Source of the DNA: a virus
Reading direction: 5' to 3' (one strand)
Length of the DNA stretch: 36,033 nt
Virus record (IMG/VR): IMGVR_UViG_3300032235_000666
Coordinates: 1-36,033 of that record
Shown here: positions 9,111-26,106 of the stretch, in pieces
Layout of the letters: each line of letters opens with the position of its first letter
Numbering within the stretch: position 1 is the stretch's first letter
The notes under the pieces: model-generated
The model's input: the letters and a program-made list of their open reading frames with translations, nothing else
Told to the model about the DNA's origin: nothing
The model's database searches: none
Position numbers and translations under genes: made by a program

Positions 9111-11432
9111 TCAATCAAATCTAGAAGACATATTATCTTGTGATCTTTGTTTTTCAGCACGACGCTTTGCTACTTTTTGTGCTGGAGATGTAGGTCCACC
9201 ATACTCACCAGCTTTAGGTGGTTTCTTACCTGGTTCTTTTTTCTGCCCTCTTGGTTGAACTCCCATTCTTCCAGAACCCATACTCTTCATAACAGATCTC
9301 ATTACTTTTGAACTAGTATCACTTCCACCATATTTTCCACCAGAAGATGTTGGTTTATCAGTTCTGGAATCTTTTCCAGTTTCTTTTTCATAACGATTGA
9401 GTTCACTGACAGTTTCACCTTCATTTTCAAAAGAATCACCAATATTGGTTACACCAGATCTAATTGCCTGTGATTGTGCTTGTTGAAGATTTTTTCTTGC
9501 AGACAAAATTTTGTTCAATTTTGCCTGAGCATTTTTAGTCTGTCTTTGTTCAGTATCTTGTTGTTTACCAGTAACCTGATTTCCTTGTTGTCCAGTTACA
9601 GTAGAAATCGCTTCATCTACTTTTTTTGCAATTTTATGTGCTTTATTAATAGTAGATTTTTTTAGTGGTGGAGTATCACCAGTCGATTTCATTGCTGCTG
9701 CCATACCGATAGCATAAGGATTTTTTGCTTCTTCTGGAACACAATTAGGAACTTCTTTACCACCTTTCTTTTTTGTTCCTACCATTTGATATCCTTTCCA
9801 GCAAGGATCTTCACCTTTCATCTTCTTTGCTTCATTTTGAAGATGATCTGCTGCTTTATATCCTTTATGACCCGCTTTATAATTTTGCCATGCTTTAGTA
9901 TTCGCCTTTTTATCAGAGGCAGTAACAGTCATTCTGGTATCTTTTGGTTCTGGTTTTTCACCACCATAAACCGCTTCACCAACTACTGCTTTCTTTACCT
10001 TTTTAGCAGCAATACCCGTTGCCTTAACTCCAGAAGCAACACCTTTACCAAACTCAGATGCACCCTTGGCTGCAACCTTTACTGCTTTACCTGCGGTTGC
10101 AGTCGCTGCCTTATGACGCTCCATGCCTTGTTGATATGCCTTAACAGCACCAAGAACACCCTTAGCAATTCTATCTTTTAGTGGTTTTTTGGATGGTTGA
10201 GATGCCTTTGCTTTCTCTACTGCCTTTTTACCTTTATCAGTAGTTACTTTTTTAGCAACCGAGGATTGACTTCTAAGAGCAGCAGTCATTCCAGATGGAC
10301 GATCATCAGACTTATCTCTTGCTGCCTTTTCTTTCTGCTTTGCTCTAATAGCAGATGCTTTCGCACCACCCTTTAAACTACCAATTGACTTTCCAGACTT
10401 AGTAACTGGCTCAATACGTCCGCTTCTTCTTGCTTCAGTTAATTCATAATCTTCTGCAACATAGAAAACAAAATCAGTAAATTTTTCCAATCCAAGTTCT
10501 TCAATAACAATTTCCAAACCTTCTTCATTCAAACCTTGATTGAAGAAATATTGTGTTGCAGTGTCAACAGTTTCAAGTATATAATTTTCATCAATCTCTT
10601 CAACACCAATTAGTTCTGCACCAAGTAAAGACATTGCTTCTTTCAATGGTGGGTTAATTACAATCTTATTATTTACTTTTTTTTCAGAGATTTTTTTGTC
10701 AGCAGTTTGCTTATCTAAAACATCCATAACTTCACTGAGATCATCTCTCCAGGAAGAATATTCTTCTTTTACACCGTAAGATTTTTTAGTGATAGACTTT
10801 TTAATTGCTTTATCTCTTGACCCTTTCCACTCATCAGTACCACTCTCTACTTTACCATCACCATCATAATCTTTTTTCGCCTTCTTTTCTGGTTTTTTAT
10901 GTTGAAGAGCAGATGCTGTTTGTTCACCCTTCTGCTTTTCACCTTCATAAGGAGTTCCGTAAGCAGTTCCAACAACTGATTGAATTTGGGGATTTTTTCT
11001 CAATTCATGCTTCTTTTTAAGATCAGCATAACGACGATATGGTTTACCAAACCCCTTTGCAGGAGTAACTAAAACCATATCTTTCTTTTTTCCTTTATTT
11101 TCACCCTCTTCCAATTCAAATTCTTCTTTTTTAACTCCACCAAAAATCATATTTTTAGCAAGTTCTTTAACAGGTGCAGATGCAGATGAATTTTGAAGAA
11201 CTTGAGACCATGCTCTTTCTAAAGGAATATCTTCTCTTCTTGCTTTGTAGCGAGTATCGTAAGCAAGTTGTCTTGCTTGTTTCTTAAGATTATCTTCTCC
11301 TCCCCCATCACCTCCACCACCACTCTCAGAAGATGGTGCTTCCTTTTTTCCCATCTGGGGTTTAATTTTTGCTTCCATCTCCATCAAATAAACTTGATGA
11401 AGATCAGTAATAACGTGGTGTAATTTAGACAT
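9111..11432 (-). CDS. large low-complexity basic virion-type protein, 773 aa
   Basis: The product is long and modular. Residues 1-50 end in a Gly/Ser-rich linker. A basic region follows with DYDGDGKVESGTDEWKGSRD near 188-207, an acidic Ca-loop-like motif that is not a perfect EF-hand. An acidic helical domain (about 255-345, for example NEEGLEIVIEELGLE) precedes a Lys/Ala-rich stretch (about 375-500) like that of the 336-aa protein. A CWKGYQMVG...NCVPEEA module follows, then a Gln-rich part and a Gly/Lys-rich tail. Such patchwork proteins recur in marine T4-like phages as structural proteins. I infer a virion role. A late-type CATAAATA is 31 nt upstream. Confidence 0.8.
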   Translation of the reverse strand: MSKLHHVITDLHQVYLMEMEAKIKPQMGKKEAPSSESGGGGDGGGEDNLKKQARQLAYDTRYKARREDIPLERAWSQVLQNSSASAPVKELAKNMIFGGVKKEEFELEEGENKGKKKDMVLVTPAKGFGKPYRRYADLKKKHELRKNPQIQSVVGTAYGTPYEGEKQKGEQTASALQHKKPEKKAKKDYDGDGKVESGTDEWKGSRDKAIKKSITKKSYGVKEEYSSWRDDLSEVMDVLDKQTADKKISEKKVNNKIVINPPLKEAMSLLGAELIGVEEIDENYILETVDTATQYFFNQGLNEEGLEIVIEELGLEKFTDFVFYVAEDYELTEARRSGRIEPVTKSGKSIGSLKGGAKASAIRAKQKEKAARDKSDDRPSGMTAALRSQSSVAKKVTTDKGKKAVEKAKASQPSKKPLKDRIAKGVLGAVKAYQQGMERHKAATATAGKAVKVAAKGASEFGKGVASGVKATGIAAKKVKKAVVGEAVYGGEKPEPKDTRMTVTASDKKANTKAWQNYKAGHKGYKAADHLQNEAKKMKGEDPCWKGYQMVGTKKKGGKEVPNCVPEEAKNPYAIGMAAAMKSTGDTPPLKKSTINKAHKIAKKVDEAISTVTGQQGNQVTGKQQDTEQRQTKNAQAKLNKILSARKNLQQAQSQAIRSGVTNIGDSFENEGETVSELNRYEKETGKDSRTDKPTSSGGKYGGSDTSSKVMRSVMKSMGSGRMGVQPRGQKKEPGKKPPKAGEYGGPTSPAQKVAKRRAEKQRSQDNMSSRFD

Positions 11433-13470: not shown

Positions 13471-13502
13471 AATTGAATGCGTTTATTTACATGTATTTAG
13501 AA

Positions 13503-13584
13503 TGCCCAAAAGAGGACTTGAACCTCCACAGATATATCTACAGGAACCTAAACCCTGCGCGTCTACCAATTCCGCCATTTGGGC
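13503..13584 (-). tRNA. tRNA-Leu (anticodon UAG)
   Basis: The 82-nt sequence folds as a tRNA. It has acceptor GCCCAAA with TTTGGGC and discriminator A, D-arm with GGTAGACGC, anticodon stem CAGGG/TCCTG with loop TTTAGGT, a long variable arm typical of leucine, and T-loop TTCAAGT. The 3' CCA is not encoded. It reads CUA-type codons, which are frequent in AT-rich phage genes. Confidence 0.95.
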
Positions 13585-13587
13585 ATT

Positions 13588-13611
13588 ATTCGCTATTTGC
13601 AAATAGCGAAT
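13588..13611. repeat. perfect 24-nt palindrome between the two tRNA genes
   Basis: The sequence is self-complementary over 24 nt, with centre ATTTGCAAAT and arms ATTCGCT/AGCGAAT. It starts at the discriminator base of tRNA-Ala and ends 3 nt before tRNA-Leu. In RNA it would form a hairpin between the two tRNAs. Confidence 0.9.
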
Positions 13612-13683
13612 GGAGAATAGCGGACTTGAACCGCTGACATCCTGCTTGCAAAGCAGGCGCTCTACCAACTGAGCTAATTCCCC
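13611..13683 (-). tRNA. tRNA-Ala (anticodon UGC)
   Basis: The 73-nt sequence has acceptor GGGGAAT/ATTCTCC, which includes the G3-U70 pair that marks alanine tRNAs, and discriminator A. The D-arm is GCTC/GAGC, the anticodon stem CCTGC/GCAGG with loop TTTGCAA, and the T-stem AGCGG/CCGCT with loop TTCAAGT. CCA is not encoded. It is transcribed first of the two tRNAs. Confidence 0.96.
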
Positions 13684-13745
13684 AGATGGATTAAGTGTGA
13701 TATGCCTCAAGGACATTCAGGGACTTAACCTCTATCATAGTATAT

Positions 13746-14222: not shown

Positions 14223-14251
14223 ATTGTATCAATATAACCAGTTTTGGTCAA
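14223..14251 (-). promoter_or_regulatory. sigma70-type promoter TTGACC-17-TACAAT ahead of mazG
   Basis: TTGACC (14251-14246) and TACAAT (14228-14223) have a 17-bp spacer, and each box matches 5 of 6. The TGA stop of the dehydrogenase gene (14250-14248) lies inside the -35 box. The mazG start is 24 nt downstream. Confidence 0.72.
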
Positions 14252-15471
14252 GGATTAAATCGGGTATTGCCGTAATGAATTACGAAGACATCATCAGATT
14301 TAAATTTTCTCCAAGGGTCAACAACAATGCTTCTCTTAGGGATTTCACAATAGAGTTCATCATTACTACCATCATGCCAATAAGTTGTAGAGGCACTGTG
14401 GGCAAGAAGAAAAACTGCTGGACCATCAGGAGTATAATCATCTCCAGTGTATTTGTCAACATAGATGGGCGGTTTACCCATTTGAGTGCAGTAGTGCCCA
14501 ACTAAGATACTATAACTTCCATCAATATAAGGAACTTTTGGTTTGTATGCTTTACCATGAATAACAATAGGTAAACCACCATCAGTATTTGCAAGTTCTA
14601 CTAAACGTTCAGCAAGTTTTTTTGCTTGCATTTCACGAGATCTCATAATACCTTCAAAGAAATCGTATCCGAGTTCCAATTTTTCAGCAAGGTGACGAAG
14701 AGCAATGTTATCTCTAGGATGACAAGCACCACCATCACCCATACCAGCCTTCATGTAATGTGGACTAATGATTCTTGAAGCACCCAAACATAAGGCATTA
14801 GTAACAATATCAACATTAATATTGTGAGAATGTTCCGCAACATCTTGGATCATGTTAACAAAACTAATCTTACTGCTAATGAATGTATTATAAAAAACTT
14901 TAATACATTCACATTCATCCCAAGTTCCAACAACATATGGAGGATCATTCTCCATAATTGTCTCATAAAATTGAATTAATTGTTTAGCATCCCCAGTTTT
15001 AGTTCCGTCTTCAGTACCAATCATAACCATTTCGGGATTAACCATATCCCAAGCAACAGATCCCATTGCAATAAGATATGGATTATAAACAAAACGAGTA
15101 TTATTAACTAATTGCCAGAATTGAGTTCTAGTTGTACCAGGAAGAACTGTAGAAATAAGAACCAAAAGTTGATCCTTATTCATATATTTGTTTGCTTCAA
15201 TTAAACATTCTTTTACAATATCATAATTAAAGTCTTTTGGTTCCAAATCCATACATGGTTTACTACCATCATATTCTGGATCATGGGGAGTGGGTACAGC
15301 AATAAAAACAATTTCTCTACCTTCAACTGCTTCTTTAATAGAGTTTGTAATAGTAACTAAATTACTGCTGCGTTCTGAAACGTCATACCCACTTACAGTA
15401 TGCCCACGAAGAACAATCTCCTCTGCACATGGCATTCCAAGTTTACCTAATCCAATAAAACCAATGTTCAT
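14248..15471 (-). CDS. UDP-glucose/GDP-mannose dehydrogenase family, full length
   Basis: These enzymes oxidise a nucleotide sugar at C6 to the uronic acid with two NAD+. The 407-aa product has an N-terminal Rossmann motif (GFIGLGKLG), a central domain with K191 and N195 in KVFYNTF, the catalytic Cys C250 in GGACHPRDN, and a complete C-terminal sugar-binding domain (VIHGKAYKPKVPY). The usual CxPKD motif reads CHPRD here, with Arg for Lys. I chose ATG 15471, with AGGGAG 5 nt upstream, over the GTG at 15477. It is almost contiguous with the amidinotransferase gene, so the two are probably co-expressed. Confidence 0.9.
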   Translation of the reverse strand: MNIGFIGLGKLGMPCAEEIVLRGHTVSGYDVSERSSNLVTITNSIKEAVEGREIVFIAVPTPHDPEYDGSKPCMDLEPKDFNYDIVKECLIEANKYMNKDQLLVLISTVLPGTTRTQFWQLVNNTRFVYNPYLIAMGSVAWDMVNPEMVMIGTEDGTKTGDAKQLIQFYETIMENDPPYVVGTWDECECIKVFYNTFISSKISFVNMIQDVAEHSHNINVDIVTNALCLGASRIISPHYMKAGMGDGGACHPRDNIALRHLAEKLELGYDFFEGIMRSREMQAKKLAERLVELANTDGGLPIVIHGKAYKPKVPYIDGSYSILVGHYCTQMGKPPIYVDKYTGDDYTPDGPAVFLLAHSASTTYWHDGSNDELYCEIPKRSIVVDPWRKFKSDDVFVIHYGNTRFNP

Positions 15472-15473
15472 AA

Positions 15474-16451
15474 TCACTCCCTCTCAAGATCCAAAGTTAC
15501 ACAGTGAAAACCACCACTTAGGGTACGCTGATGCCTCATAGGAAGCATAGCACATTCTATACCAGCTTTTTCAAGAACTTTTCTGGTTGAGTGTTGATGC
15601 TCTTCAAGAGCAACTAAATTAGGATTTACACTAAACAAATTCATATTCACCCATTCTGAAGCATTATTATACCCTGGATAATATCCAATGTCTACTGGTT
15701 CTGGACACCAAATAATATCCCACCGACTAAAAGGTTCTGGAAGAACATCTCTAGATTTAATTCTACTTGGATTTGCTAAAAGTAAACCTTCACGCAAAAA
15801 TGCTACGGTAGTATCAATATGCACATAACTATAAACATTTTCCAAATAATGAACTTTGTATTGAACACTAGATCCATCATTCAATATATTAGAAATTTTT
15901 CCACCACCAGATTTATTTCCACTATTAGATACAAGATATAAAATATGTTCATTGGCACGTATTGCATTGGCAGCATCAAATGCTACTATATTTTCATTTA
16001 GTGCTAAAATGTCTGGATCACCAATACAATTTTCATTGTAAAGATCATCCATATAATTACATTTTAATTCTATAATATCATTTTTAAAATGATGTGCCAT
16101 TGATCTCCAATTATCTTTTCTAGATCTCAATGGCATAGGTGCAGAAATGACTTTATCACCATGAATAAAAATACAATCTCTAGGGCAAAAATTATAATAT
16201 TCAGTTGGTTCTTTTTTTGGTCTTAAAACCTCAACATTTTCTTTCTTTAAAAAGTCAACAAATATTTCCAAATCTTCATTTGCTTCATCTATTACTTGTT
16301 TGGGATAAGGTCCTGTTTTAATAGTATTTTCATCTTTAATATCAGCATAATTAATAGTCCGAAGACTTTTATCCAAAGGAGGAATAGTGGCATAATCAGA
16401 AACTCCCACTATAACCTTTTTCAGTTTACCCCATTCATTAGTACTATACAT
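15474..16451 (-). CDS. amidinotransferase (glycine/inosamine-phosphate amidinotransferase family)
   Basis: Family members move the amidino group of arginine to an amine, giving a guanidino product and ornithine. The 325-aa product has the expected catalytic triad: D159 in AFDAANAIRA, H211 in HIDTTVAF and C317 in GGFHCVT near the C-terminus. NFCPRD near 87-92 is also typical. The size is closer to StrB-type and bacterial enzymes than to the longer eukaryotic form. It has its own promoter (16467-16495) and is followed by a UDP-sugar dehydrogenase. The acceptor is unknown. An amino sugar made by the DegT enzymes nearby is an inference. Confidence 0.87.
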   Translation of the reverse strand: MYSTNEWGKLKKVIVGVSDYATIPPLDKSLRTINYADIKDENTIKTGPYPKQVIDEANEDLEIFVDFLKKENVEVLRPKKEPTEYYNFCPRDCIFIHGDKVISAPMPLRSRKDNWRSMAHHFKNDIIELKCNYMDDLYNENCIGDPDILALNENIVAFDAANAIRANEHILYLVSNSGNKSGGGKISNILNDGSSVQYKVHYLENVYSYVHIDTTVAFLREGLLLANPSRIKSRDVLPEPFSRWDIIWCPEPVDIGYYPGYNNASEWVNMNLFSVNPNLVALEEHQHSTRKVLEKAGIECAMLPMRHQRTLSGGFHCVTLDLERE

Positions 16452-16466
16452 CTATTAAATAATCAC

Positions 16467-16495
16467 ATTTTAAATTATTTCTACCCAATTGTCAA
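16467..16495 (-). promoter_or_regulatory. sigma70-type promoter TTGACA-17-TAAAAT ahead of the amidinotransferase
   Basis: A perfect TTGACA (16495-16490) and TAAAAT (16472-16467), 17 bp apart, lie 16 nt before the start codon. The TGA stop of the last GT25 copy (16494-16492) lies inside the -35 box. Confidence 0.7.
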
Positions 16496-17295
16496 CAATC
16501 AACTCTAATTGTCATTTTTTCATCATTCAATTTCCCATAAGTAAAGAATTCATCTAAAGTGAAATCATTTCTTTTATTGATCCACCAATAATAATAATAT
16601 TTTTTACACAAATCATGATGTTTTCTATCAATTTTTACATCATATTCAGTACTACCAAGTTCTGTATTTGTAGTAATTAAAGGTATACAATATGTTCTTC
16701 CAGTGTGCCCAATAAAATAATCTACAGTAATAGAACAATCTCTAAATGTTACATCACCAACCAATCTATCTAAACAATACTTATCACCAACAGTATGTAA
16801 TCTTAATATTTTTTCAGCATATTCTCTAGTAATTAAAATTGGACCAAAAAAACTCCCCCTAGTTTTAGGATGTAAAAAGAATGGAATGTATTCTTTGGTT
16901 TCAAATCCCAATTGAATACAATCCCAATCATAAGGAAGTCTCGACATCAAGTAGTCCCAATCAAAATGCCAATATCTTATTAAGTTCAAATCATAATCAT
17001 CTTCCATTAAAATAACATAAGGGTCATTGGTAGTGTTTAACCATGATTTCAAGGTTTCAAAATGACTTATAGCAGTTCCTACAACATACGCAGGTATATT
17101 TTTTACTTTTCCATGAATTAAATTTCCCCATTCATTGGATTTTGAAGCCAAATATTTGGAAGTAGAAACTCTTGTATAATTTGTTATACCCCAATGTAAA
17201 AACTGTTTTTCCATATATTCCCTCCTATCCAATCTATTATCCAAATTTAAGTAATAGATATGAGGTATATTTTTCAATTTATTAAATAAATCCAT
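16492..17295 (-). CDS. GT25-like glycosyltransferase, copy F
   Basis: The 267-aa product matches the GT25 layout (LPS/procollagen-type galactosyltransferases). The N-terminal motif is IPHIYYLNLDNRLDRR with WGITNYTRVS, the acidic metal site is MEDDYDL near residue 95, and YWHFDWDYLMSRLPYDWDCI follows. GPILITREYAEKILRLH comes next, and the C-terminal signature is FTLDEFFTYGKLND. The acidic motif is intact, so activity is likely. The ATG at 17295 overlaps the preceding TGA (TGATG); a GTG at 17298 is less likely. It is the last of six tandem copies. The sugar and acceptor are unknown. Confidence 0.87.
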   Translation of the reverse strand: MDLFNKLKNIPHIYYLNLDNRLDRREYMEKQFLHWGITNYTRVSTSKYLASKSNEWGNLIHGKVKNIPAYVVGTAISHFETLKSWLNTTNDPYVILMEDDYDLNLIRYWHFDWDYLMSRLPYDWDCIQLGFETKEYIPFFLHPKTRGSFFGPILITREYAEKILRLHTVGDKYCLDRLVGDVTFRDCSITVDYFIGHTGRTYCIPLITTNTELGSTEYDVKIDRKHHDLCKKYYYYWWINKRNDFTLDEFFTYGKLNDEKMTIRVDC

Positions 17296-18104
17296 CACTC
17301 AAATAACCACCAACTATAGTTTTTAATTTTTCTAATCATAGAAATATCATTTGGTTTACCATAAGTAAAAAACTCATCCAATGTAGTTTTATTAGATTGT
17401 TTCTCCCACCAATCATAGTACGCATTTCTACAAGCAGATATTAATTTATATTTTTTACTTTCCTTATTTAAAAATTTAGGATTAGAGGGTAGCAATGGTA
17501 TAGAATAAGTTTTTCCATTATGCCCTATAAAATAATCAATGGTCCCAGAGTGACCTCCCATGTTCATATTTGCAATATAATTAGACAATTTGTATTTGCC
17601 ATCAAAATGATGTAACTTTATTATTTTTTTAGCATAGTGCCTGTTAATTAAAGAAGGTCCAAAAGTGTGGCTTGGTAATATTGGGTGTAGATAAAAAGGA
17701 ATTATTGAGACATTTTCAAATCCCAATTGAATACAATCCCAATCATAAGGAATATTTTGCATTATGGTTTTCCAATCAAAAATCCAATGATTTATTATAT
17801 CAAAATCAGTTGTATCCTTTATTAAAATAAAATATGAATCATCCGTTTCATCTAACCATTTTTTAATAAATTCAAGAACCGTTACAGAATATGCAGATAC
17901 ATTATAGTTTAACTTATATAATTCTAAATCTAATACCTTTTCTACAACATTATTTTCATTATACTTGGATGCAGATATTCTCTCAAAATTTGTTATACCA
18001 AATTTTGCAAATTGATCTTCAATATATTTTTTTCTATTTAAATGTTGATCATAATTTAAATAGTATATTTTAGGTATTCCAACTAATTTTTCATGTAAGT
18101 CCAT
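17295..18104 (-). CDS. GT25-like glycosyltransferase, copy E, acidic motif degenerate
   Basis: The 269-aa product keeps the family frame: IPKIYYLNYDQHLNRK, the FDW...PYDWDCIQLGFE block, GPSLINRHYAKKIIKLHH and the tail TTLDEFFTYGKPND. The metal-binding MEDDYDL of its neighbours has become IKDTTDF, which removes the EDD triplet. It may be inactive or have a changed role, while its frame stays intact. I chose ATG 18104 because all copies begin MDL/MNL just before this point; ATG 18113 is the alternative. It lies between two copies with intact motifs. Confidence 0.83.
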   Translation of the reverse strand: MDLHEKLVGIPKIYYLNYDQHLNRKKYIEDQFAKFGITNFERISASKYNENNVVEKVLDLELYKLNYNVSAYSVTVLEFIKKWLDETDDSYFILIKDTTDFDIINHWIFDWKTIMQNIPYDWDCIQLGFENVSIIPFYLHPILPSHTFGPSLINRHYAKKIIKLHHFDGKYKLSNYIANMNMGGHSGTIDYFIGHNGKTYSIPLLPSNPKFLNKESKKYKLISACRNAYYDWWEKQSNKTTLDEFFTYGKPNDISMIRKIKNYSWWLFE

Positions 18105-18105
18105 A

Positions 18106-18993
18106 TTATTCATATTCTACTAATAATTGTTCTCTTATACTTATCATCTTATTAAAAAAATATTTAGGATCGCAGTCAACAACACTCCTTTGCATCATTC
18201 CATCATTAGATTTATTATACGTAAAAAATTCATCTAGAGTAAACTTATCACGTTCATACTTCCACCAATCATAGTAAGTATCTAAACATATTTGCATGTG
18301 TGGTCTTGGTAACCAAACATTATCCTCAAAACTACCAAAACATGGATTTAATGGAATTAATGGTAATGCATACGTTTTGCCATTTTGACACAGGAAATAA
18401 TCTCCAGTACCAGAAACACTCTTGTACCCTTTATGATTTTTCCAGACAGCGTTTCCTATATTATTATCTAACTTATATCTATCACCAATACAATGTAGTC
18501 TCAATAGTTTTTTAACATAATCTCTATTAAGCAAACATGGTCCCAAAGAATACTCATAATTTAATGGATGTAAATAAAAGGGAATTATATCTGGTGATTC
18601 AAATCCCAACATAATACAATCCCAATCATAAGGAAGTCTTGACATCAAGTAATCCCAATCAAAATGCCAGTATTTAATTATTCCTAAATCATAATCATCT
18701 TCCATCAATATTAAATATTCATCATTAGTTGTATCCAACCATTCTTTTAAAAAATCAAAATGTGTTATTGCATGTGCAACAGCATAAGAAAATGAATTCG
18801 TGGTATCTCCTATTATCAAATGTTTCCACTTCTCTTTTTCCGACACTAAAAACTTTGATGCAGAAATTCTAGTAAAGTTATCCAATCCCCAATTTTTGAA
18901 TTGGGTTTCCATATACTTTTTTCTATCCACCCTTTCATCAAGATTAACGTAGTAAATATGTGGTATATTTTTTAATTTATTTTCTATAATCAT
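18106..18993 (-). CDS. GT25-like glycosyltransferase, copy D
   Basis: The 295-aa product has an intact GT25-type layout: IPHIYYVNLDERVDRKKYME, MEDDYDLGIIKYW near residue 95, FDWDYLMSRLPYDWDCIMLG, GPCLLNRDYVKKLLRLH and the tail FTLDEFFTYNKSND. A C-terminal extension of about 35 residues follows. The start overlaps the end of copy C by 17 nt. The acidic site is complete, so this is one of the copies likely to be active. Confidence 0.87.
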   Translation of the reverse strand: MIIENKLKNIPHIYYVNLDERVDRKKYMETQFKNWGLDNFTRISASKFLVSEKEKWKHLIIGDTTNSFSYAVAHAITHFDFLKEWLDTTNDEYLILMEDDYDLGIIKYWHFDWDYLMSRLPYDWDCIMLGFESPDIIPFYLHPLNYEYSLGPCLLNRDYVKKLLRLHCIGDRYKLDNNIGNAVWKNHKGYKSVSGTGDYFLCQNGKTYALPLIPLNPCFGSFEDNVWLPRPHMQICLDTYYDWWKYERDKFTLDEFFTYNKSNDGMMQRSVVDCDPKYFFNKMISIREQLLVEYE

Positions 18994-19837
18994 ACATCTT
19001 ATATTGTGTTGGGTTATAAACCATTAGGTAATCATTGGGTTTTCCATAAGTAAAAAATTCATCTAAAGTAAATTTATCTCTTTCATGTTTCCACCAATAA
19101 TAATAGGTATTCCTTGCCATAACATCTCCACCCTGCCTGTAAATGTTATGTTGAATTCTGCTGTGATTTTCAAAACTACCAAAATCAGGGTTTGTTGTTA
19201 TTAGAGGTATAGTATAAGTTTTTCCAGGATGGCACATAAAATAATCAACTGTTCCAGAACCAGCAACATCTTCTTGCCTATTCCAAGCAGCACTACAAAC
19301 AGTGTTTATTAATTTGTACTTATCATCTACACAATGTAATCTTATTAATTTCTCTACATAATTTCTATTCAATAGACATGGACCAAAATCATGGGCAGAA
19401 TCTATAGGGTGTAAATAAAATCTAAGTCCCAAAGGATTTTCATATCCAAGTTGAATACAGTCCCAATCATAAGGAAGTCTTGACATCAAATACTCCCAAT
19501 CAAAATGCCAATATTCTATCAAACTTAAATCATAATCGTCTTCCATCAATATTAAATATTCATCATCACTACTGTCTAACCAAGTTTTCAAAAAATCTAA
19601 GTGTGTTATTGCATTTGCAGCAATAGGAACTAGAAGATTATAATTTTGATTATCAAGTATTAAATGTCTCCACTCATCTTTTTTGGATGCTAAAAATTTA
19701 GTTCCAGATATTCTAGTATAATTTGTCACACCCCATCTTTCAAATTGGGTTTCCATGTATTCTCTTCTATCTGTCCTATTATCAAGATTAAAATAATAAA
19801 TGTGAGGTATTCCTTTTAGCTTGTTATCTAAATCCAT
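18977..19837 (-). CDS. GT25-like glycosyltransferase, copy C
   Basis: The 286-aa product has an intact acidic motif (MEDDYDLSLIEYW) and FDWEYLMSRLPYDWDCIQLG. GPCLLNRNYVEKLIRLH and the tail FTLDEFFTYGKPND follow. It is closest by eye to copies D and F: the three share nearly the same motif strings, which points to recent duplication. The start overlaps copy B by 10 nt. The donor sugar cannot be read from sequence. Confidence 0.87.
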   Translation of the reverse strand: MDLDNKLKGIPHIYYFNLDNRTDRREYMETQFERWGVTNYTRISGTKFLASKKDEWRHLILDNQNYNLLVPIAANAITHLDFLKTWLDSSDDEYLILMEDDYDLSLIEYWHFDWEYLMSRLPYDWDCIQLGYENPLGLRFYLHPIDSAHDFGPCLLNRNYVEKLIRLHCVDDKYKLINTVCSAAWNRQEDVAGSGTVDYFMCHPGKTYTIPLITTNPDFGSFENHSRIQHNIYRQGGDVMARNTYYYWWKHERDKFTLDEFFTYGKPNDYLMVYNPTQYKMYDYRK

Positions 19838-20673
19838 AATATTTTTTGCTCATCTGACATAAATTTTATATTTAACGCTTCACCATGTACCTTATTTTGA
19901 TAATCATCATCCAAAAAAATTTTCATTTTAGAATCATTTGATTTACAATAATGAAATTTATCAAAAATAGTAAATAACTTTGATTTTGTTCTCCACCAAT
20001 TTTCTGTAGTAATAGAAGAAATCTTTTCATCATTATCTTCATAATTACCCCAAGTATTAAAAATAGGGAACATATAACATACACCTAATTCAAATAGAAA
20101 AAAATTTATATTCCCATAATAGTATTCTTGCACACCATAATTATTACTATTAATGTGTAATTTATATTTGCCCTCATAAAAATGTAATTTTTTTATTTTT
20201 TTGGCGAATTGTCTAGTTACCATAAAACATTTTGATTTATATATTTCATCTTCTTTTGGTTTAAGATGCATAGAAATAGTATCAGATTTAATAACATTTA
20301 ACTGTATACAATCCCAGTTATACGGTAAGCATGTCATTAAAAAATTCCAATCAAAAGACCAATATTCGGCCAAGTCAATATTTACATTATCGTCCATAAA
20401 AATACAGTATTGATCGTCACAATTGTCATACCAATCAATAATAGTTTTTAAATATATTAAATTGTATTGCAACTGGTTATCATCTAAAGATAGATTTTTA
20501 TCTAAAATTAATTTTTTATAGTTTTTAAGTTCATAAGAAATTCTCTCATAGTTAGTTATCTCCCACTTAGAAAAATTATCTTCCATAATTTTTCTATTAG
20601 AATTATTTTGATCAAGATTAAAATAATATATTTTAGGAAGTCCTGTAAGTTTATTTTTATGTTCTATATTCAT
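19828..20673 (-). CDS. GT25-like glycosyltransferase, copy B, strongly diverged
   Basis: The 281-aa product is the least like the others. It retains LPKIYYFNLDQNNSNRK, WEITNYERIS, a DWNFLMTCLPYNWDCIQL block and a worn C-terminal signature (FTIFDKFHYCKSND). The acidic motif reads MDDNVNIDL instead of MEDDYDL, and the usual arginine-rich N-terminal motif is altered. It has a longer tail after the signature. It may act on another substrate or be losing function. It overlaps copies A and C by 4 and 10 nt, so it is still held in the operon. Confidence 0.8.
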   Translation of the reverse strand: MNIEHKNKLTGLPKIYYFNLDQNNSNRKIMEDNFSKWEITNYERISYELKNYKKLILDKNLSLDDNQLQYNLIYLKTIIDWYDNCDDQYCIFMDDNVNIDLAEYWSFDWNFLMTCLPYNWDCIQLNVIKSDTISMHLKPKEDEIYKSKCFMVTRQFAKKIKKLHFYEGKYKLHINSNNYGVQEYYYGNINFFLFELGVCYMFPIFNTWGNYEDNDEKISSITTENWWRTKSKLFTIFDKFHYCKSNDSKMKIFLDDDYQNKVHGEALNIKFMSDEQKILWI

Positions 20674-21545
20674 AATGTTATATAAGTGTTATTGAAAGAT
20701 GGTATTGTTATTGTCATTTTGTAATCAGTAGATTTATTATAATTGAAAAAATCTTCTGCAGTAAATTGTTGACTTTCATTCATCCACCACTTTCTAATAT
20801 AGTAACTAGAAAATATATCATTCATTTTGTTATGATGCATTTTTATAGTATCATCATACTCCTGACCTGGAAATAAACTTGGTTTATTATCTGGATTTTG
20901 TGATAGGTGTTGATTTAATGAGAATAATGGTAATGTATAATTAATACCAACTTGATATATTAAAAAGTCATCACTACTGTAACAAGGTTTTTCTACTCTA
21001 CAATCTCTCAAACTATTATCAAGTTTAAACCCACCATCAGGTCTTAAATGCATTTTAATTAGTTTTTCAGCATACCATCTATTAATCATATAACATGCAC
21101 CTGAGCAGCAATTATGAAGTCTTTTTTTAAGGTGCATTGGAATATATGCATAATGACAGAAATATAAAAGAATACAATCCCAATTATAAGGTAGATTTTT
21201 CATTAAATAGTCCCAATCAAACATCCAATATTCGATTAGTTCTAAAGATAAATCATCTTGCATAATGATACAATATTCTGAAATTCCAGAATTGTACCAA
21301 TCGATTATTGTTGTAAATTGGTTCATTACAATTGAAGCATCTGAAGGAGTTAATAACATTAAATCTAACTTATCCTTCCATTCATCAATTTTATCAATAG
21401 AATATCGAGAAGCAGAAACTCTAGTATAGTCTGTTATTCCCCATTTTTTAAATTGGTTCTCCATATTAGTTTTTCTATCAATTCTATGGTCCAAATTTTG
21501 ATAGAATATTGGAGGTAAATTTTTTAATTTATTGTCTAAATTCAT
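20670..21545 (-). CDS. GT25-like glycosyltransferase, copy A
   Basis: The 291-aa product is the first transcribed of the six. It has LPPIFYQNLDHRIDRK, WGITDYTRVSASRY, an acidic motif MQDDLSLELIEYW near residue 95 (QDD for EDD), FDWDYLMKNLPYNWDCILL, and a tail FTAEDFFNYNKSTD. An insert before the tail makes it longer than copies C and F. The aspartates of the motif are kept, so activity is plausible. It overlaps the short DegT gene by 4 nt (ATGA). Confidence 0.83.
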   Translation of the reverse strand: MNLDNKLKNLPPIFYQNLDHRIDRKTNMENQFKKWGITDYTRVSASRYSIDKIDEWKDKLDLMLLTPSDASIVMNQFTTIIDWYNSGISEYCIIMQDDLSLELIEYWMFDWDYLMKNLPYNWDCILLYFCHYAYIPMHLKKRLHNCCSGACYMINRWYAEKLIKMHLRPDGGFKLDNSLRDCRVEKPCYSSDDFLIYQVGINYTLPLFSLNQHLSQNPDNKPSLFPGQEYDDTIKMHHNKMNDIFSSYYIRKWWMNESQQFTAEDFFNYNKSTDYKMTITIPSFNNTYITL

Positions 21546-22141
21546 TTTTTAAAAACCTCCATATCAGGTAAATATGGGTAATTCAAGTATCCATATCGTT
21601 TAGGTTGTTTATAAGCAACCTCTTTAAATTTTTCAATACCAGACATCGCAATTTCTGGTGTCATATAATAATGATATCCAACCATACTTATATTTTGTTC
21701 TCCCCATGGTTTATCTGATGTTCTTCCATCATAGACCATTTTTTTAATAGTATCATGTGCATCTTTATTATCCAATAAAATTATTCCACCCCTACCCAAA
21801 CTTAAATGTTTTCTAAATTGAAAACTTATACACATGTAAGTTTCAGGAATATAACTATTTTTTTCCCATAAAAAAGCAGCATCTATTATATTAGTGTTTC
21901 CAAGATAGTAATAATCACGCCATTGATAATTTTTTTTCCAATCCCATTTCAACCCAAGTTTCTCAGCAGTAAATGGAATTGAAATATAAGTATGCTCTGG
22001 AATAAGAATGTTATCATATTGCTCATATCTTAAGCACAATTCAATTGCATGTGTGCAACAATCAGTTGCCACAGCATACGGAGAATTAAAAAATTTTGCT
22101 ATTAATTTTTCAAAATCGTCGATAACAGAAAAACTATTCAT
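21542..22141 (-). CDS. half-length DegT/DnrJ/EryC1/StrS aminotransferase-like protein
   Basis: Full family members are near 380 aa and use PLP to aminate keto sugars. This one has 199 aa but keeps recognisable landmarks in order: SPYAVATDCCTHAIELCLR, IIDAAFLW (D87) and FQFRKHLSLGRGGIILL with K111 at the PLP lysine position. The C-terminal domain and part of the large domain are missing. The frame is clean, with 4-nt overlaps on both sides, so it is not a recent frameshift wreck. It could be a compact form, a binding partner of the full-length enzyme at 24967-26106, or inactive. Confidence 0.75.
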   Translation of the reverse strand: MNSFSVIDDFEKLIAKFFNSPYAVATDCCTHAIELCLRYEQYDNILIPEHTYISIPFTAEKLGLKWDWKKNYQWRDYYYLGNTNIIDAAFLWEKNSYIPETYMCISFQFRKHLSLGRGGIILLDNKDAHDTIKKMVYDGRTSDKPWGEQNISMVGYHYYMTPEIAMSGIEKFKEVAYKQPKRYGYLNYPYLPDMEVFKK

Positions 22142-22782
22142 ATTGATTTACCATAAAGAATGAAATCTTTTTCATATAATTTGTAAAAATAATTTAAATT
22201 AATTTTAACATACTTTTCAAATATTTTTTCACAAGTAAGTTTTGTGATTAAATTACTTTCTCTCTCAACATTCAAAGTTATTTTATTGGAATATAATATT
22301 AATTTGTTTATTTTATCTTCCAATCCACTATCCATTTTTAAGTATGTGTTGGTTAGTTTGGTTATGCATGGATCTATAGATAAATGCTGTGGTGCAGTAT
22401 GAAGATCAAATATATATTTTTTATTTTTAACTTGTTCAACAATATAGTCAATAGATCCATCAAATCTATTCATAAATTCACCAATACCAGAAATCCATCT
22501 TTTTACAGGATCCCGTATTACACAAAAAGATCTATATTTTTTAGTGCATAATAATAAATTGATATCATCTTCACTGAAATTAATCATATCAATAAACGCA
22601 GATTTTTGTAATGCTGACGATATTGATGTACTAGCACATTTATCTATATGCAAATATATCAGTTTTTCTTTTGCACTTATGTAAGATCCATTAAATTTTT
22701 GTTTATTTTCAGTATTTAAATTTCTATATTTAAATGTGAAAGAAGAACAATAGTTAGAATATTCATTTATAACATTATCCAT
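22138..22782 (-). CDS. sulfotransferase-like protein
   Basis: Sulfotransferases move sulfate from PAPS to a hydroxyl or amine, often on a sugar. The 214-aa product has a 5'-phosphosulfate loop in YLHIDKCASTSISSAL (K48, near residues 45-53) and a 3'-phosphate site in FCVIRDPVKRWISG (R90 with Ser98). Both resemble the Sulfotransfer_2-type carbohydrate enzymes. The ATG at 22782 overlaps the oxygenase stop by 8 nt; a TTG at 22788 is less likely. It sits in the sugar cassette, so the acceptor is probably a glycan. This is by context. Confidence 0.78.
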   Translation of the reverse strand: MDNVINEYSNYCSSFTFKYRNLNTENKQKFNGSYISAKEKLIYLHIDKCASTSISSALQKSAFIDMINFSEDDINLLLCTKKYRSFCVIRDPVKRWISGIGEFMNRFDGSIDYIVEQVKNKKYIFDLHTAPQHLSIDPCITKLTNTYLKMDSGLEDKINKLILYSNKITLNVERESNLITKLTCEKIFEKYVKINLNYFYKLYEKDFILYGKSI

Positions 22783-23296
22783 TATCAATTCTTGCAGTTA
22801 CCTGTAAAGTATATCTATTTTCTCTACCTATATTAGCAGCAATATGAGGTGCTTCCCCAATCCACATACAACAATCACCTTTTTTCCAATTAGTTATGGG
22901 ATTATCATCAACTTCAAAATAATGCCCAGATTTCCAATCATCCAAGAATACAAGAATTCTACACAACTCATTAGGATCATCTACATTTAATATTTTTTTA
23001 TATACTGGATAGGTATCTTTATGCTCTGGCATTATAGTTCCAGGAGACATGCAATATAAGCACAGTTTAGCATCTGATATTTTAAACTTTTCAATGACAT
23101 CTTGTAGAACATCATAACACCATGCGGGAAGACCTTTATATTCTTCAATCAAAAATCCAGTATAGTTTACATACAAGTGTCCAATTTCTTTCCAAGTGTT
23201 GACAGTATTATCATCTGGAAATTGCCTTCTAGGAGAATAATTTAAATTTTTAAATTCACCTATCAAATCTGGGTTAATTCTTTTAAAGTAATGCAT
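22775..23296 (-). CDS. 2OG-Fe(II) oxygenase-like (Asp/Asn hydroxylase type)
   Basis: The 173-aa product has a double-stranded beta-helix motif set: H92 and D94 in PEHKDTYP, H151 in EAPHIAANIG and R161 in ENRYTLQVT. These fit an HxD...H iron site and a 2-oxoglutarate arginine as in aspartyl/asparaginyl hydroxylase-like proteins. The central block is RILVFLDDWKSGHYFEVDD. I chose ATG 23296, inside the end of the epimerase gene (14-nt overlap), over the GTG at 23314. The substrate may be a sugar, a protein or a small molecule. Confidence 0.78.
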   Translation of the reverse strand: MHYFKRINPDLIGEFKNLNYSPRRQFPDDNTVNTWKEIGHLYVNYTGFLIEEYKGLPAWCYDVLQDVIEKFKISDAKLCLYCMSPGTIMPEHKDTYPVYKKILNVDDPNELCRILVFLDDWKSGHYFEVDDNPITNWKKGDCCMWIGEAPHIAANIGRENRYTLQVTARIDNG

Positions 23297-24206
23297 CGTT
23301 TTTATACCACTCACACGTTTTCTTCAATCCTTCATCAATAGAAGTAAACTTTGTTATATTAGTTATATCAGTTAATAAATCAATATTTGGACATCTCCTA
23401 TTGACCGATCCTTCTTTAGATTTCAAAATATTAATCTGAGGATCGTATTCAAATATAGAAAATATTTTATATATCAAATCTTTTATTACAATCTCATCAG
23501 CAACACCGAGATTGATAATTCTACCATCACTAAGAGAACTATTCATAATAAGATCCAACATGGTTACAGCATCATCAATATAACAAAATGATCTAGTTTG
23601 ATCCGCACCATATATTTTAAATGGAGTTTCTTTTAAAAGAACTCTTTTAATAACTTCTGGAATTACATGATTATATCCCATTCGTGGACCATAAACATTA
23701 TGTGGTCTAACTATAGAAAAATTAATACCAGAATTTATAAACAACAATTCACCAAATATTTTACTTCCAGCATAAGACCATCTAGGATTATATACATCAT
23801 CAATAGAAACTACCACATCTTCTTTTGTTGGTATTTCCTTTTCTTTAGTTGAAGCATATACTTCAGATGAAGAGGTATACAATACCTTTTTCACTTTCGT
23901 TTTTTTACACCATTTTATAAGATTTATATTAATTAACGTATTAACTTCCAATACCTCATAGGGAATTTCATAGAAATTACTAGTACCATTTATTGCAGCA
24001 AAATGATAAACATAATCATAATTATCTAATTTATCATAATCTTTTTCTTTTGTTAGATCACACTCAATATAATTAAGATCTTCGACAAAATTATCATTCT
24101 TACCTCTAAAATTATTATCACAAATAGTGACATCATTATTTTTGCACAGGTAATTTGCTAAGTGTGATCCTATAAATCCAGTACCACCAGTTATAAGTAT
24201 TTTCAT
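23283..24206 (-). CDS. NAD-dependent sugar epimerase/dehydratase (extended SDR)
   Basis: Extended SDR enzymes act on nucleotide sugars as epimerases, dehydratases or decarboxylases. The 307-aa product has the Rossmann motif GGTGFIGSH (7-15), YHFAAINGT, the active-site TSSSEVY (111-117) and YAGSK with Y145 and K149. RPHNVYGPR and YGADQTRSFCYIDDA complete the family pattern. The length is normal. It overlaps the dehydrogenase gene by 4 nt upstream and the oxygenase gene downstream. The exact reaction is not decided by these motifs. Confidence 0.9.
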   Translation of the reverse strand: MKILITGGTGFIGSHLANYLCKNNDVTICDNNFRGKNDNFVEDLNYIECDLTKEKDYDKLDNYDYVYHFAAINGTSNFYEIPYEVLEVNTLININLIKWCKKTKVKKVLYTSSSEVYASTKEKEIPTKEDVVVSIDDVYNPRWSYAGSKIFGELLFINSGINFSIVRPHNVYGPRMGYNHVIPEVIKRVLLKETPFKIYGADQTRSFCYIDDAVTMLDLIMNSSLSDGRIINLGVADEIVIKDLIYKIFSIFEYDPQINILKSKEGSVNRRCPNIDLLTDITNITKFTSIDEGLKKTCEWYKNDALL

Positions 24207-24970
24207 AAGAATTTTTTATTGTCAGTAATAATTGCATCAAAAAATTTAATATCGATATTATTTTTTTTACAATAATTACTCATTGCAAGAGTATCTTTTG
24301 GTAAACAAGATCCAGAAAATCCCCTAAGATTTTTATTACAATTCAGATATAAATCTGATATGAACTCTCTTTTTGCAAGGGCAGTTTTAATATCATCATA
24401 ATTCACACCAAAATTTTCACATATTTCATAAAAAACATTGGATAAAGTAATCATAGTGGCATTATGAATATTATGGAAATATTTTAAAATTTCACTCTGA
24501 GTTGGATTTAACATAATAAAATTTTTGGGATAAAATCCATGAGTTTTCTTAACAATATCAAACACATCTTCATCTAGAGTTCCAACTACACATATATCAT
24601 GATTGTCCATGAAATCAGATATTGAGCACCTCTCTCTAAGAAACTCTGGAACATGACATATTCTCATCAAATCATATTGCTCTATCAATTTTTGAGTTGT
24701 CCCTGGTTCAACTGTGGATTTTATAGCAACCACACCACGATAATGTAATGAATTAAGTTCACTTACAACATCAAGTACAATAGAAGTGTCACACTCACCT
24801 TCCAATGTACTTGGAGTGGGGACACAAATATAACATATATCAGTTACTAAGACATCTTTAATACTTGTTTGTAATACAATATCATGGGGAACTACTTCAT
24901 ATCCCAATCGAGTAAAACAATATTCTAATGTTTTACCTACAACACCCAACCCAACAATACCAATTTTCAT
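24203..24970 (-). CDS. short UDP-glucose/GDP-mannose dehydrogenase family protein
   Basis: The 255-aa product has GIVGLGVVG, VPTPSTLEGECD, KSTVEPGTT, CHVPEFLRERC, K163 in ILKYFHNIHN and the catalytic Cys C222 with K225 in GFSGSCLPKDT. These are all the N-terminal and central-domain residues. It ends about 30 residues later, so the C-terminal sugar-nucleotide domain found in full-length members (about 400 aa) is missing. The frame is clean, with 4-nt overlaps on both sides. It may be a compact enzyme, work as an oligomer with another subunit, or have a different substrate. Confidence 0.85.
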   Translation of the reverse strand: MKIGIVGLGVVGKTLEYCFTRLGYEVVPHDIVLQTSIKDVLVTDICYICVPTPSTLEGECDTSIVLDVVSELNSLHYRGVVAIKSTVEPGTTQKLIEQYDLMRICHVPEFLRERCSISDFMDNHDICVVGTLDEDVFDIVKKTHGFYPKNFIMLNPTQSEILKYFHNIHNATMITLSNVFYEICENFGVNYDDIKTALAKREFISDLYLNCNKNLRGFSGSCLPKDTLAMSNYCKKNNIDIKFFDAIITDNKKFL

Positions 24971-26106
24971 AATTTTTCATACCTAGATACGATATCAATA
25001 ACCTTATCTACATCAGAATTAGTCATTTCATAATGACAAGGTATCATTATATGATGATCTTCAGCATATTGAACATTCATTAAACTAGCATCAAGTCCAC
25101 CAAAAATTGGATATTGATCCAATCTTCTATTATTCATATGAACGTGAATGTTATTTTCCCACATCATTTCAGCAAATTTTTTCCGATCTTCAACAAATAC
25201 TGGAAATATCTGATAATTGGGAATATTGAAATTATGGTATTTTACCATATTAACTTTCTCAAAATTACTAAATGCATCTCTATATTTTTCACCAATATAT
25301 CTTCTACGTTCTAAACATATGTCCAAATATTCCAATGCAATATTTGCCATAGATGCAGTAATATCATTCATATTTAATTTGAATCCCAAAGTGTCTGGCA
25401 TATAATCGAAAAATGGATCTACATTCGGACTTCCATCTCTTGCTTCTCTATCTATACCAAACCAAATAGATTTTTTCAATTTACTATAATATTCTTCATT
25501 ACTAGTAGTAACAAATCCACCATCACCACAAGTAATTATTTTTACTGTTTGAAGAGAAAACGTACATAATTCACCAGATCCAATTTTTTGATCTTTATAG
25601 TAAGATCCCATAGCATGGCAACAATCTTCAATCAATGGTAGATTATATCTTCCACAAACATCACGCAACTCATCCAAATCTACTGGATTACCAGCAAAAT
25701 GAACACAAACTACAGCTTTAGTTCTATTTGTTATTTTTTGTTCTACACTTTTTGGATCAATATTTAAAGTATCTCTTTGAATATCTGCAAATACTGGTTT
25801 TGCTCCCATCTCAAGTATAGCAGTATTAGTAGCAATAAAAGTCCAGGGAGTGGTAATTACCTCATCCCCAGACTTTATTCCAATAGCAGAATACGCAGAT
25901 TTTAATGACCCCGTTCCACTGGTAGTTGCAATAGAATATCTTGCATTAAAAATATTACATATTTTCTCTCTTAATTGTCTCTCTCGTTTTCCAGTATTAA
26001 TCCATCCAGATTGAAGAACTTCCGATACATCCCTATCTAAATCTTTAGGGATAAATGCACCAGAACATCTAATTTCTTTTCCTATATTTCCGTCGTATTT
26101 AAACAT
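24967..26106 (-). CDS. DegT/DnrJ/EryC1/StrS sugar aminotransferase, full length
   Basis: This PLP enzyme adds an amino group to a keto sugar on a nucleotide carrier, or acts as the related dehydratase. The 379-aa product has TTSGTGSLKSA, PWTFIATN, VFADIQRDTLNID, EDCCHAMGSYY (D161), and SLQTVKIITCGDGG with K189 as the PLP lysine. Length and motif order are those of an intact member. It overlaps the upstream oxygenase (8 nt) and the downstream dehydrogenase (4 nt). With the short dehydrogenase and epimerase it would supply amino or oxidised sugars. Confidence 0.91.
   Translation of the reverse strand: MFKYDGNIGKEIRCSGAFIPKDLDRDVSEVLQSGWINTGKRERQLREKICNIFNARYSIATTSGTGSLKSAYSAIGIKSGDEVITTPWTFIATNTAILEMGAKPVFADIQRDTLNIDPKSVEQKITNRTKAVVCVHFAGNPVDLDELRDVCGRYNLPLIEDCCHAMGSYYKDQKIGSGELCTFSLQTVKIITCGDGGFVTTSNEEYYSKLKKSIWFGIDREARDGSPNVDPFFDYMPDTLGFKLNMNDITASMANIALEYLDICLERRRYIGEKYRDAFSNFEKVNMVKYHNFNIPNYQIFPVFVEDRKKFAEMMWENNIHVHMNNRRLDQYPIFGGLDASLMNVQYAEDHHIMIPCHYEMTNSDVDKVIDIVSRYEKL

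Follow-up and report, generated by a model that had tools for sequence, protein, structure and literature searches.

Six glycosyltransferase (GT) genes of one family lie end to end in IMGVR_UViG_3300032235_000666, a complete IMG/VR virus record of 36,033 bases that was analysed over its whole length and is referred to here as the window. The record, probably a fragment of a larger genome, carries genes for the gp43 DNA polymerase, UvsX, the gp41 helicase and ribonucleotide reductase subunits, and its DNA has matches to Synechococcus phages; it derives from a T4-like cyanophage. The six complete open reading frames occupy 16492-21545 on the minus strand, encode GT25-like proteins of 268-295 residues and are numbered in order of transcription. 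Position 1 (20670-21545), the first transcribed, has the motif QDDLS. Position 2 (19828-20673), the fastest evolving, has a degenerate donor site (DDNVN). Positions 3 (18977-19837) and 6 (16492-17298; listed start GTG) have the full motif EDDYD, which is also found in position 4 (18106-18993), the position that is missing from the five-copy arrays described below. Position 5 (17295-18113) again has a degenerate donor site (KDTTD).

Successive genes overlap by 4, 10, 17, 8 and 4 nucleotides; a first-pass annotation of this DNA had given a range of 1-17 nucleotides. The proteins align from end to end and share 43 invariant columns, and the signatures which that annotation had listed as shared (IYY.NLD, FDW..LM..LPY.WDC and a C-terminal FT.DEFF.Y.K..D) are real. 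Pairwise identity among the six is 32-59%. Positions 3, 4 and 6, the three copies that had been singled out for their near-identical motif strings, are mutually 56-59% identical, while every other pair lies at 32-48%. All six match a single family, the phrog_2835 'glucosyltransferase' profile, over most of the protein (E 9e-34 to 4e-52), which excludes chance as the source of their likeness; they are indeed six tandem paralogs, as first proposed.

The assignment to a family of known structure rests on fold. AlphaFold2 models of position 3 (predicted local distance difference test, pLDDT, 94; predicted template modelling score, pTM, 0.92) and of the degenerate position 5 (pLDDT 93, pTM 0.91) both have the GT-A fold. 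The top solved match is mimivirus R655 (9crz; Z 15.7 for position 3 and 14.9 for position 5), followed by the C-terminal domain of COLGALT1 (14.9 and 14.7) and then by bacterial beta-1,4-galactosyltransferase; the first matches to families other than GT25, POMGNT1 and GnT I, score about 12 (12.2 for position 3 and 11.9 for position 5). Structural alignment to GT25 enzymes gives 12-19% identity, and profile alignment places the EDD of the array proteins on that of R655. In COLGALT1, the EDD is the metal site, and a further GT domain at the N-terminus acts as a dormant scaffold (PMC13382579). The Pfam GT25 profile (PF01755) is matched by three window copies, at best with 16.7 bits against a cut-off of 24, and by 26 of 96 relatives at E ≤ 0.01. 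Because the window copies stay under the curated cut-off, the proteins are labelled GT25-like and taken to be a divergent branch of GT25. The family call of the first-pass annotation thus agrees with the fold of both modelled copies and with the sub-threshold Pfam matches.

A scan of IMG/VR yielded 317 stretches encoding relatives, and the best 77 loci were analysed. Forty of the 77 carry a five- or six-copy array colinear with that of the window: besides the window itself, there are 17 six-copy arrays, 22 five-copy arrays and one (locus L041) in which position 2 is split. Some arrays are near-identical to one another, so that the clearly distinct ones number 17, the window included; those of L001, L025 and L048 are truncated by contig ends. 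In L041 (6037-6884), position 2 is broken into two frames; it is whole in the closely similar L040, and the break may be a sequencing error or real. Five-copy arrays have no position 4, and a short gap often replaces the usual overlap between positions 3 and 5. In this layout, termed type I, the array is flanked on one side by genes for gp41, a 2-oxoglutarate (2OG) enzyme, a sulfotransferase and a short DegT protein, and on the opposite side by genes for an amidinotransferase (AMT) and a UDP-glucose dehydrogenase (UGD). Type II loci (most of L046-L077, and the Synechococcus phage isolate S-SCSM2R) have three or four copies, followed in order by the short DegT, a 2OG enzyme, the AMT and often another copy; the partners are the same and their order is different. 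One array homolog in S-SCSM2R (L078, 12907-13614), the third, has no N-terminal part and is very divergent, and is perhaps another degenerate member. An ordinary single-copy cyanophage GT25 gene also occurs elsewhere in several of the long array-bearing records. When the cassette by itself was compared with the phage collection at the DNA level, no match was obtained, and a bacterial source for the array genes found no backing, as no relative turned up in GTDB genomes in a non-exhaustive scan with one peptide pattern.

How old the copies are can be read from two trees. In a tree of 257 copies, each window copy is most closely related to its positional counterparts in other phages, and any two window copies are at least 1.28 changes per column apart. 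A preliminary version of the second tree, which included two divergent S-SCSM2R copies, set position 4 apart, probably by long-branch attraction; the final version was computed without these two and rooted on five single-copy genes. All array copies then fall into one clade (100/100), apart from the single-copy cyanophage GT25 genes, and each type I position forms its own clade (bootstrap 98-100; 100/100 for position 1). The array clade has two halves, alpha (positions 1 and 2, with type II copies 2 and last) and beta (positions 3-6, with type II copies 1, 3 and 4), whose split is older than that between types I and II; within beta, positions 3, 4 and 5 group together. As the copies form one clade in which neighbouring positions are grouped, these trees indicate that they arose by tandem duplication, before the phages diverged. 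The separate transfer of each copy, the outcome that would have spoken against duplication, is ruled out by the same clade. The first-pass annotation was right about the mode of origin; its picture of an expansion inside the phage, serving to vary its sugars, does not hold. A recent duplication in this phage is ruled out by the same-position orthology, and since the same array recurs copy by copy in many phages, the copies are old and appear to be fixed in role. The comparison with related phages that it had called for does reveal variation in copy number, five or six, in arrays of the same order.

The catalytic motif also follows position, with counts given here for unique sequences per position across type I arrays. 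Position 1 reads QDD in 29/29, position 3 EDDxD in 30/30 and position 6 EDDxD in 29/29; position 4 has EDD in 11/13. At position 2, the third Asp is lost in 29 of 31 sequences and EDD is present in one; the arginine of the N-loop and the Asp of the DYF motif are also lost in most. Position 5 has [K/R]D[T/I/Q/S/C]xD in 30/30 and EDD in 0/30: a basic residue replaces the Glu, all 30 retain the Asp that follows it, the Asp in fifth place and that of DYF, and the first arginine of the N-terminal NLDxRxxR loop is lost in 30/30. The pattern is the same, nearly without exception, in all 17 distinct arrays. As positions 2 and 5 sit in different halves of the tree, degeneration of the donor site happened at least twice. 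Simple pairwise estimates of the ratio of non-synonymous to synonymous substitution rates (dN/dS), some with high dS, are below 0.4 at all positions (0.01-0.36), including position 2 (0.01-0.36) and position 5 (0.04-0.26). By this measure the two degenerate positions are under purifying selection and preserved rather than decaying, and open frames together with the low ratios rule out pseudogene decay. Loss of a DxD-type motif under purifying selection, as expected of a pseudo-glycosyltransferase partner like COSMC or the N-terminal domain of COLGALT1, is thus found at position 5 (30/30) and position 2 (29/31).

The array does not travel alone; neither its companions nor the degenerate donor sites had been remarked in the first-pass annotation. 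A StrB1-like inosamine-phosphate AMT (15474-16451, minus strand, as are all partners listed here) is a full-length homolog of StrB1 (1bwd; phmmer E 4.6e-53) with the C-terminal GGFHC block kept, and its only close relative in the phage collection is that of S-SCSM2R (68.5%). Next to it lies a UDP-glucose/GDP-mannose dehydrogenase-like gene (UGD1, 14248-15477; PF00984/PF03721 above cut-off), which is conserved in type I loci. On the other side are a DegT/DnrJ/EryC1 aminotransferase-like gene (21542-22141), whose 199-residue product passes the Pfam cut-off (PF01041, 51.8 bits) at about half the usual length, a sulfotransferase-like gene (22138-22788; PF03567, 32.7 bits), which is a partner in type I arrays, and a gene for a 2OG-Fe(II) hydroxylase-like protein of the Asp/Arg hydroxylase family (22775-23314; PF05118, 25.4 bits, cut-off 22.6). 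The short DegT, the 2OG hydroxylase and the AMT are constant partners that accompany nearly all arrays, the AMT in both type I and type II. Across 25 type I loci, the distances of positions 1-6, the 2OG hydroxylase, the AMT and the sulfotransferase intercorrelate (r 0.69-0.95) and are more weakly correlated with those of gp41/uvsX (r 0.29-0.66), with the exception of position 4, which occurs in six-copy arrays only; these values are descriptive, and locus pairs are not independent. The pattern fits a cassette that is exchanged between phages as a unit. UGD1 and the short DegT stand outside it. In every type I locus the short DegT has the sulfotransferase and position 1 as its neighbours, yet its distances track gp41/uvsX (r 0.73-0.76) and have r 0.27 with the sulfotransferase and 0.42 with position 1; habitat-linked selection or local recombination are possible reasons.

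Beyond these partners, a variable module (23283-26106, minus strand) encodes an NAD epimerase, a second UGD of only 255 residues (UGD2) and a full-length DegT aminotransferase. The whole module is restricted to the window and L002-L004, its closest relatives; the other type I loci lack it. The first-pass annotation had described a phage that otherwise packs unique genes; this is incorrect, as the neighbourhood holds two UGD-like, two DegT-like and several 2OG oxygenase genes. Just outside the cassette, at 13502-13684, lies a pair of tRNA genes, for Leu (anticodon TAG) and Ala (anticodon TGC). Further away, 9111-11432 encodes a Lys/Glu/Ser/Gly-rich protein of 773 residues with no Pfam family and a weak match to phrog_3477; its gene is kept beside the cassette in many loci.

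The interpretation that we prefer, with middling confidence, is that of an old, positionally fixed cassette for glycan assembly, in which positions 2 and 5 are subunits with an altered donor site and a host surface glycan is the favoured acceptor. The array of five or six paralogs would have come down to many T4-like cyanophages as a cassette, and its copies would work as one set; because order and motif are fixed, they probably perform constant, separate tasks on a single product. Positions 3 and 6, and usually 4, would be conventional metal-dependent sugar transferases and position 1 a QDD variant transferase, while positions 2 and 5 would most likely stabilise or steer the active copies. 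There is precedent for such subunits in the dormant N-terminal domain of COLGALT1 and, in the GT31 family, in COSMC, which has lost its DxD and works as a chaperone serving T-synthase (PMC7185993); CEECAM1 is an inactive GT25 paralog (PMC3244457). A scaffold or chaperone suits position 2 better; at position 5, where the basic residue never varies, both a scaffold and metal-free catalysis are in keeping with the data. The pairing of an aminotransferase with an AMT suggests, from their families, that an amino group is installed and then converted to a guanidino group. The joint product would be one defined short oligosaccharide, aminated and amidinated (short DegT and AMT), oxidised (UGD) and sulfated. 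Its acceptor would most likely be a host surface glycan such as lipopolysaccharide (LPS), altered during infection; other cyanophage sugar genes have been proposed to act on the host surface (PMC9602691). A phage protein would rank second and DNA last. More speculative, and rather less likely, is the wider proposal that many cyanophages possess a multi-subunit glycan machine with built-in pseudoenzymes, coupled to the chemistry of guanidino sugars, in which duplication of one gene gave rise to five or six fixed roles and one copy in each ancient half of the family has independently become a non-catalytic scaffold.

Several points weigh against the preferred interpretation. The array itself, the orthology of its copies, the fold of two of them, the motif pattern, purifying selection and co-inheritance are results of the analysis, while complex formation, product, acceptor and purpose are inferred. 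An enzyme that loses its DxD motif may go on working without a metal, as those of GT14 and bacterial GT6 do (PMC7185993). Two sequences at position 2, those of L009 and L024, still read [D/E]DD, so that loss of the third Asp was incomplete at the base of the clade. Finally, the genes searched include no recognisable flippase, polymerase or lipid-carrier enzyme, which makes the acceptor a guess.

The second of these points leads to the strongest rival, which nevertheless seems improbable: that all six copies are active, with metal-independent catalysis at positions 2 and 5, a Lys or Arg replacing the metal at the latter, and that the set forms five or six distinct linkages one after another. 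The strict exchange of Glu for Lys or Arg at position 5 beside three retained acidic residues, the purifying selection on both positions and the active DxD-less enzymes of GT14 and GT6 are all in keeping with this. The loss of the first N-loop arginine at position 5 is not, and position 2 shows no constant substitute and, in most sequences, lacks the N-loop arginine and the DYF Asp as well.

Somewhat less likely again is that the array decorates a phage protein, in the virion or elsewhere, by 2OG-dependent hydroxylation followed by GT25 glycosylation, as on collagen hydroxylysine or giant-virus collagen. Such coupling of hydroxylase and GT25 enzyme is known (PMC9546862, PMC13382579), a 2OG Asp/Arg-hydroxylase-like protein is a constant partner, and the top fold matches are R655 and COLGALT1. 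However, the neighbouring proteins read include none that is collagen-like, the aminotransferase/AMT pair is left unexplained, and the cassette comes after the replication block (gp43-uvsX-gp41). Late expression was sought through the exact late-promoter consensus TATAAATA only, which is absent from the cassette and is matched no more often than by chance; this is weak evidence.

A role in glycosylating phage DNA, in the manner of the T4 glucosyltransferases and with the AMT and 2OG enzymes making hypermodified bases, is very improbable. The cassette does adjoin replication genes, and Campylobacter phages also have AMT-like genes. However, six array-bearing records, among them the complete S-SCSM2R genome, contain no protein of the thymidylate synthase family (PF00303), to which dCMP hydroxymethylase belongs; DNA is the least likely acceptor for this reason. 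T4 DNA glucosyltransferases have a GT-B fold, whereas the nearest folds here are those of protein and LPS transferases. Least probable of all is that the tandem copies are a recent gain by which the phage can vary its sugars: lineage-dependent copy number and a younger pair in type II arrays (copies 3 and 4) might be taken for it, but the orthology of positions across phages, the large distances between copies within one genome and the position-wise clades of the rooted tree already contradict it.

Neither GT25-like genes in cyanophages nor LPS clusters in phages are new. The single-copy phrog_2835 gene of Kyanoviridae (S-SM2, S-T4, ACG-2014f and others) belongs to the same family over its full length, has the EDD motif and is likewise found in T4-like cyanophages, often beside LPS-type genes, but it usually occurs once per genome and lies outside the array clade. 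S-SCSM2R (PQ898602.1) shares four array homologs, the short DegT, the AMT, a 2OG enzyme and overlapping genes; it differs in its type II order, in having only four homologs (one partial) and in having no [K/R]D position 5, and no description of its cluster was found in the full-text literature searched. With mimivirus R655, human COLGALT1 and the bacterial beta-1,4-galactosyltransferase, the array proteins share the GT-A fold and, with R655, an aligned EDD; they differ in their low identity and sub-threshold Pfam scores, and are known here from sequence and models. COLGALT1 combines one GT domain that is active with one that is dormant (PMC13382579), where the array would have the paired roles on separate genes. 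Cyanophage LPS or cell-wall clusters (P-SSM2, S-SSM7, S-SCSM1) combine nucleotide-sugar genes with genes for glycosyltransferases and presumably modify the host surface (PMC9602691), but mix GT families, whereas the array repeats one family in fixed order with fixed partners. The streptomycin pathway also joins an amidinotransferase (StrB1) to a DegT-type aminotransferase; unlike there, no cyclitol or aminoglycoside pathway was recognised here, and the DegT-like protein is short. In the full-text literature searched, which leaves most subscription journals outside, no paper was found to describe paralogs arrayed in conserved positions with constantly degenerate members among them.

Arrays of paralogs in phages are easily taken for recent events or for generators of diversity, but neither description applies here. 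While the phages otherwise diverged, five or six copies retained their order and each its own motif, and in two of them a damaged donor site has persisted. With the array, the role of pseudo-glycosyltransferases can be tested within a small bacterial system; it also suggests an undescribed glycan, perhaps with amino or guanidino groups, that cyanophages would put on something during infection.

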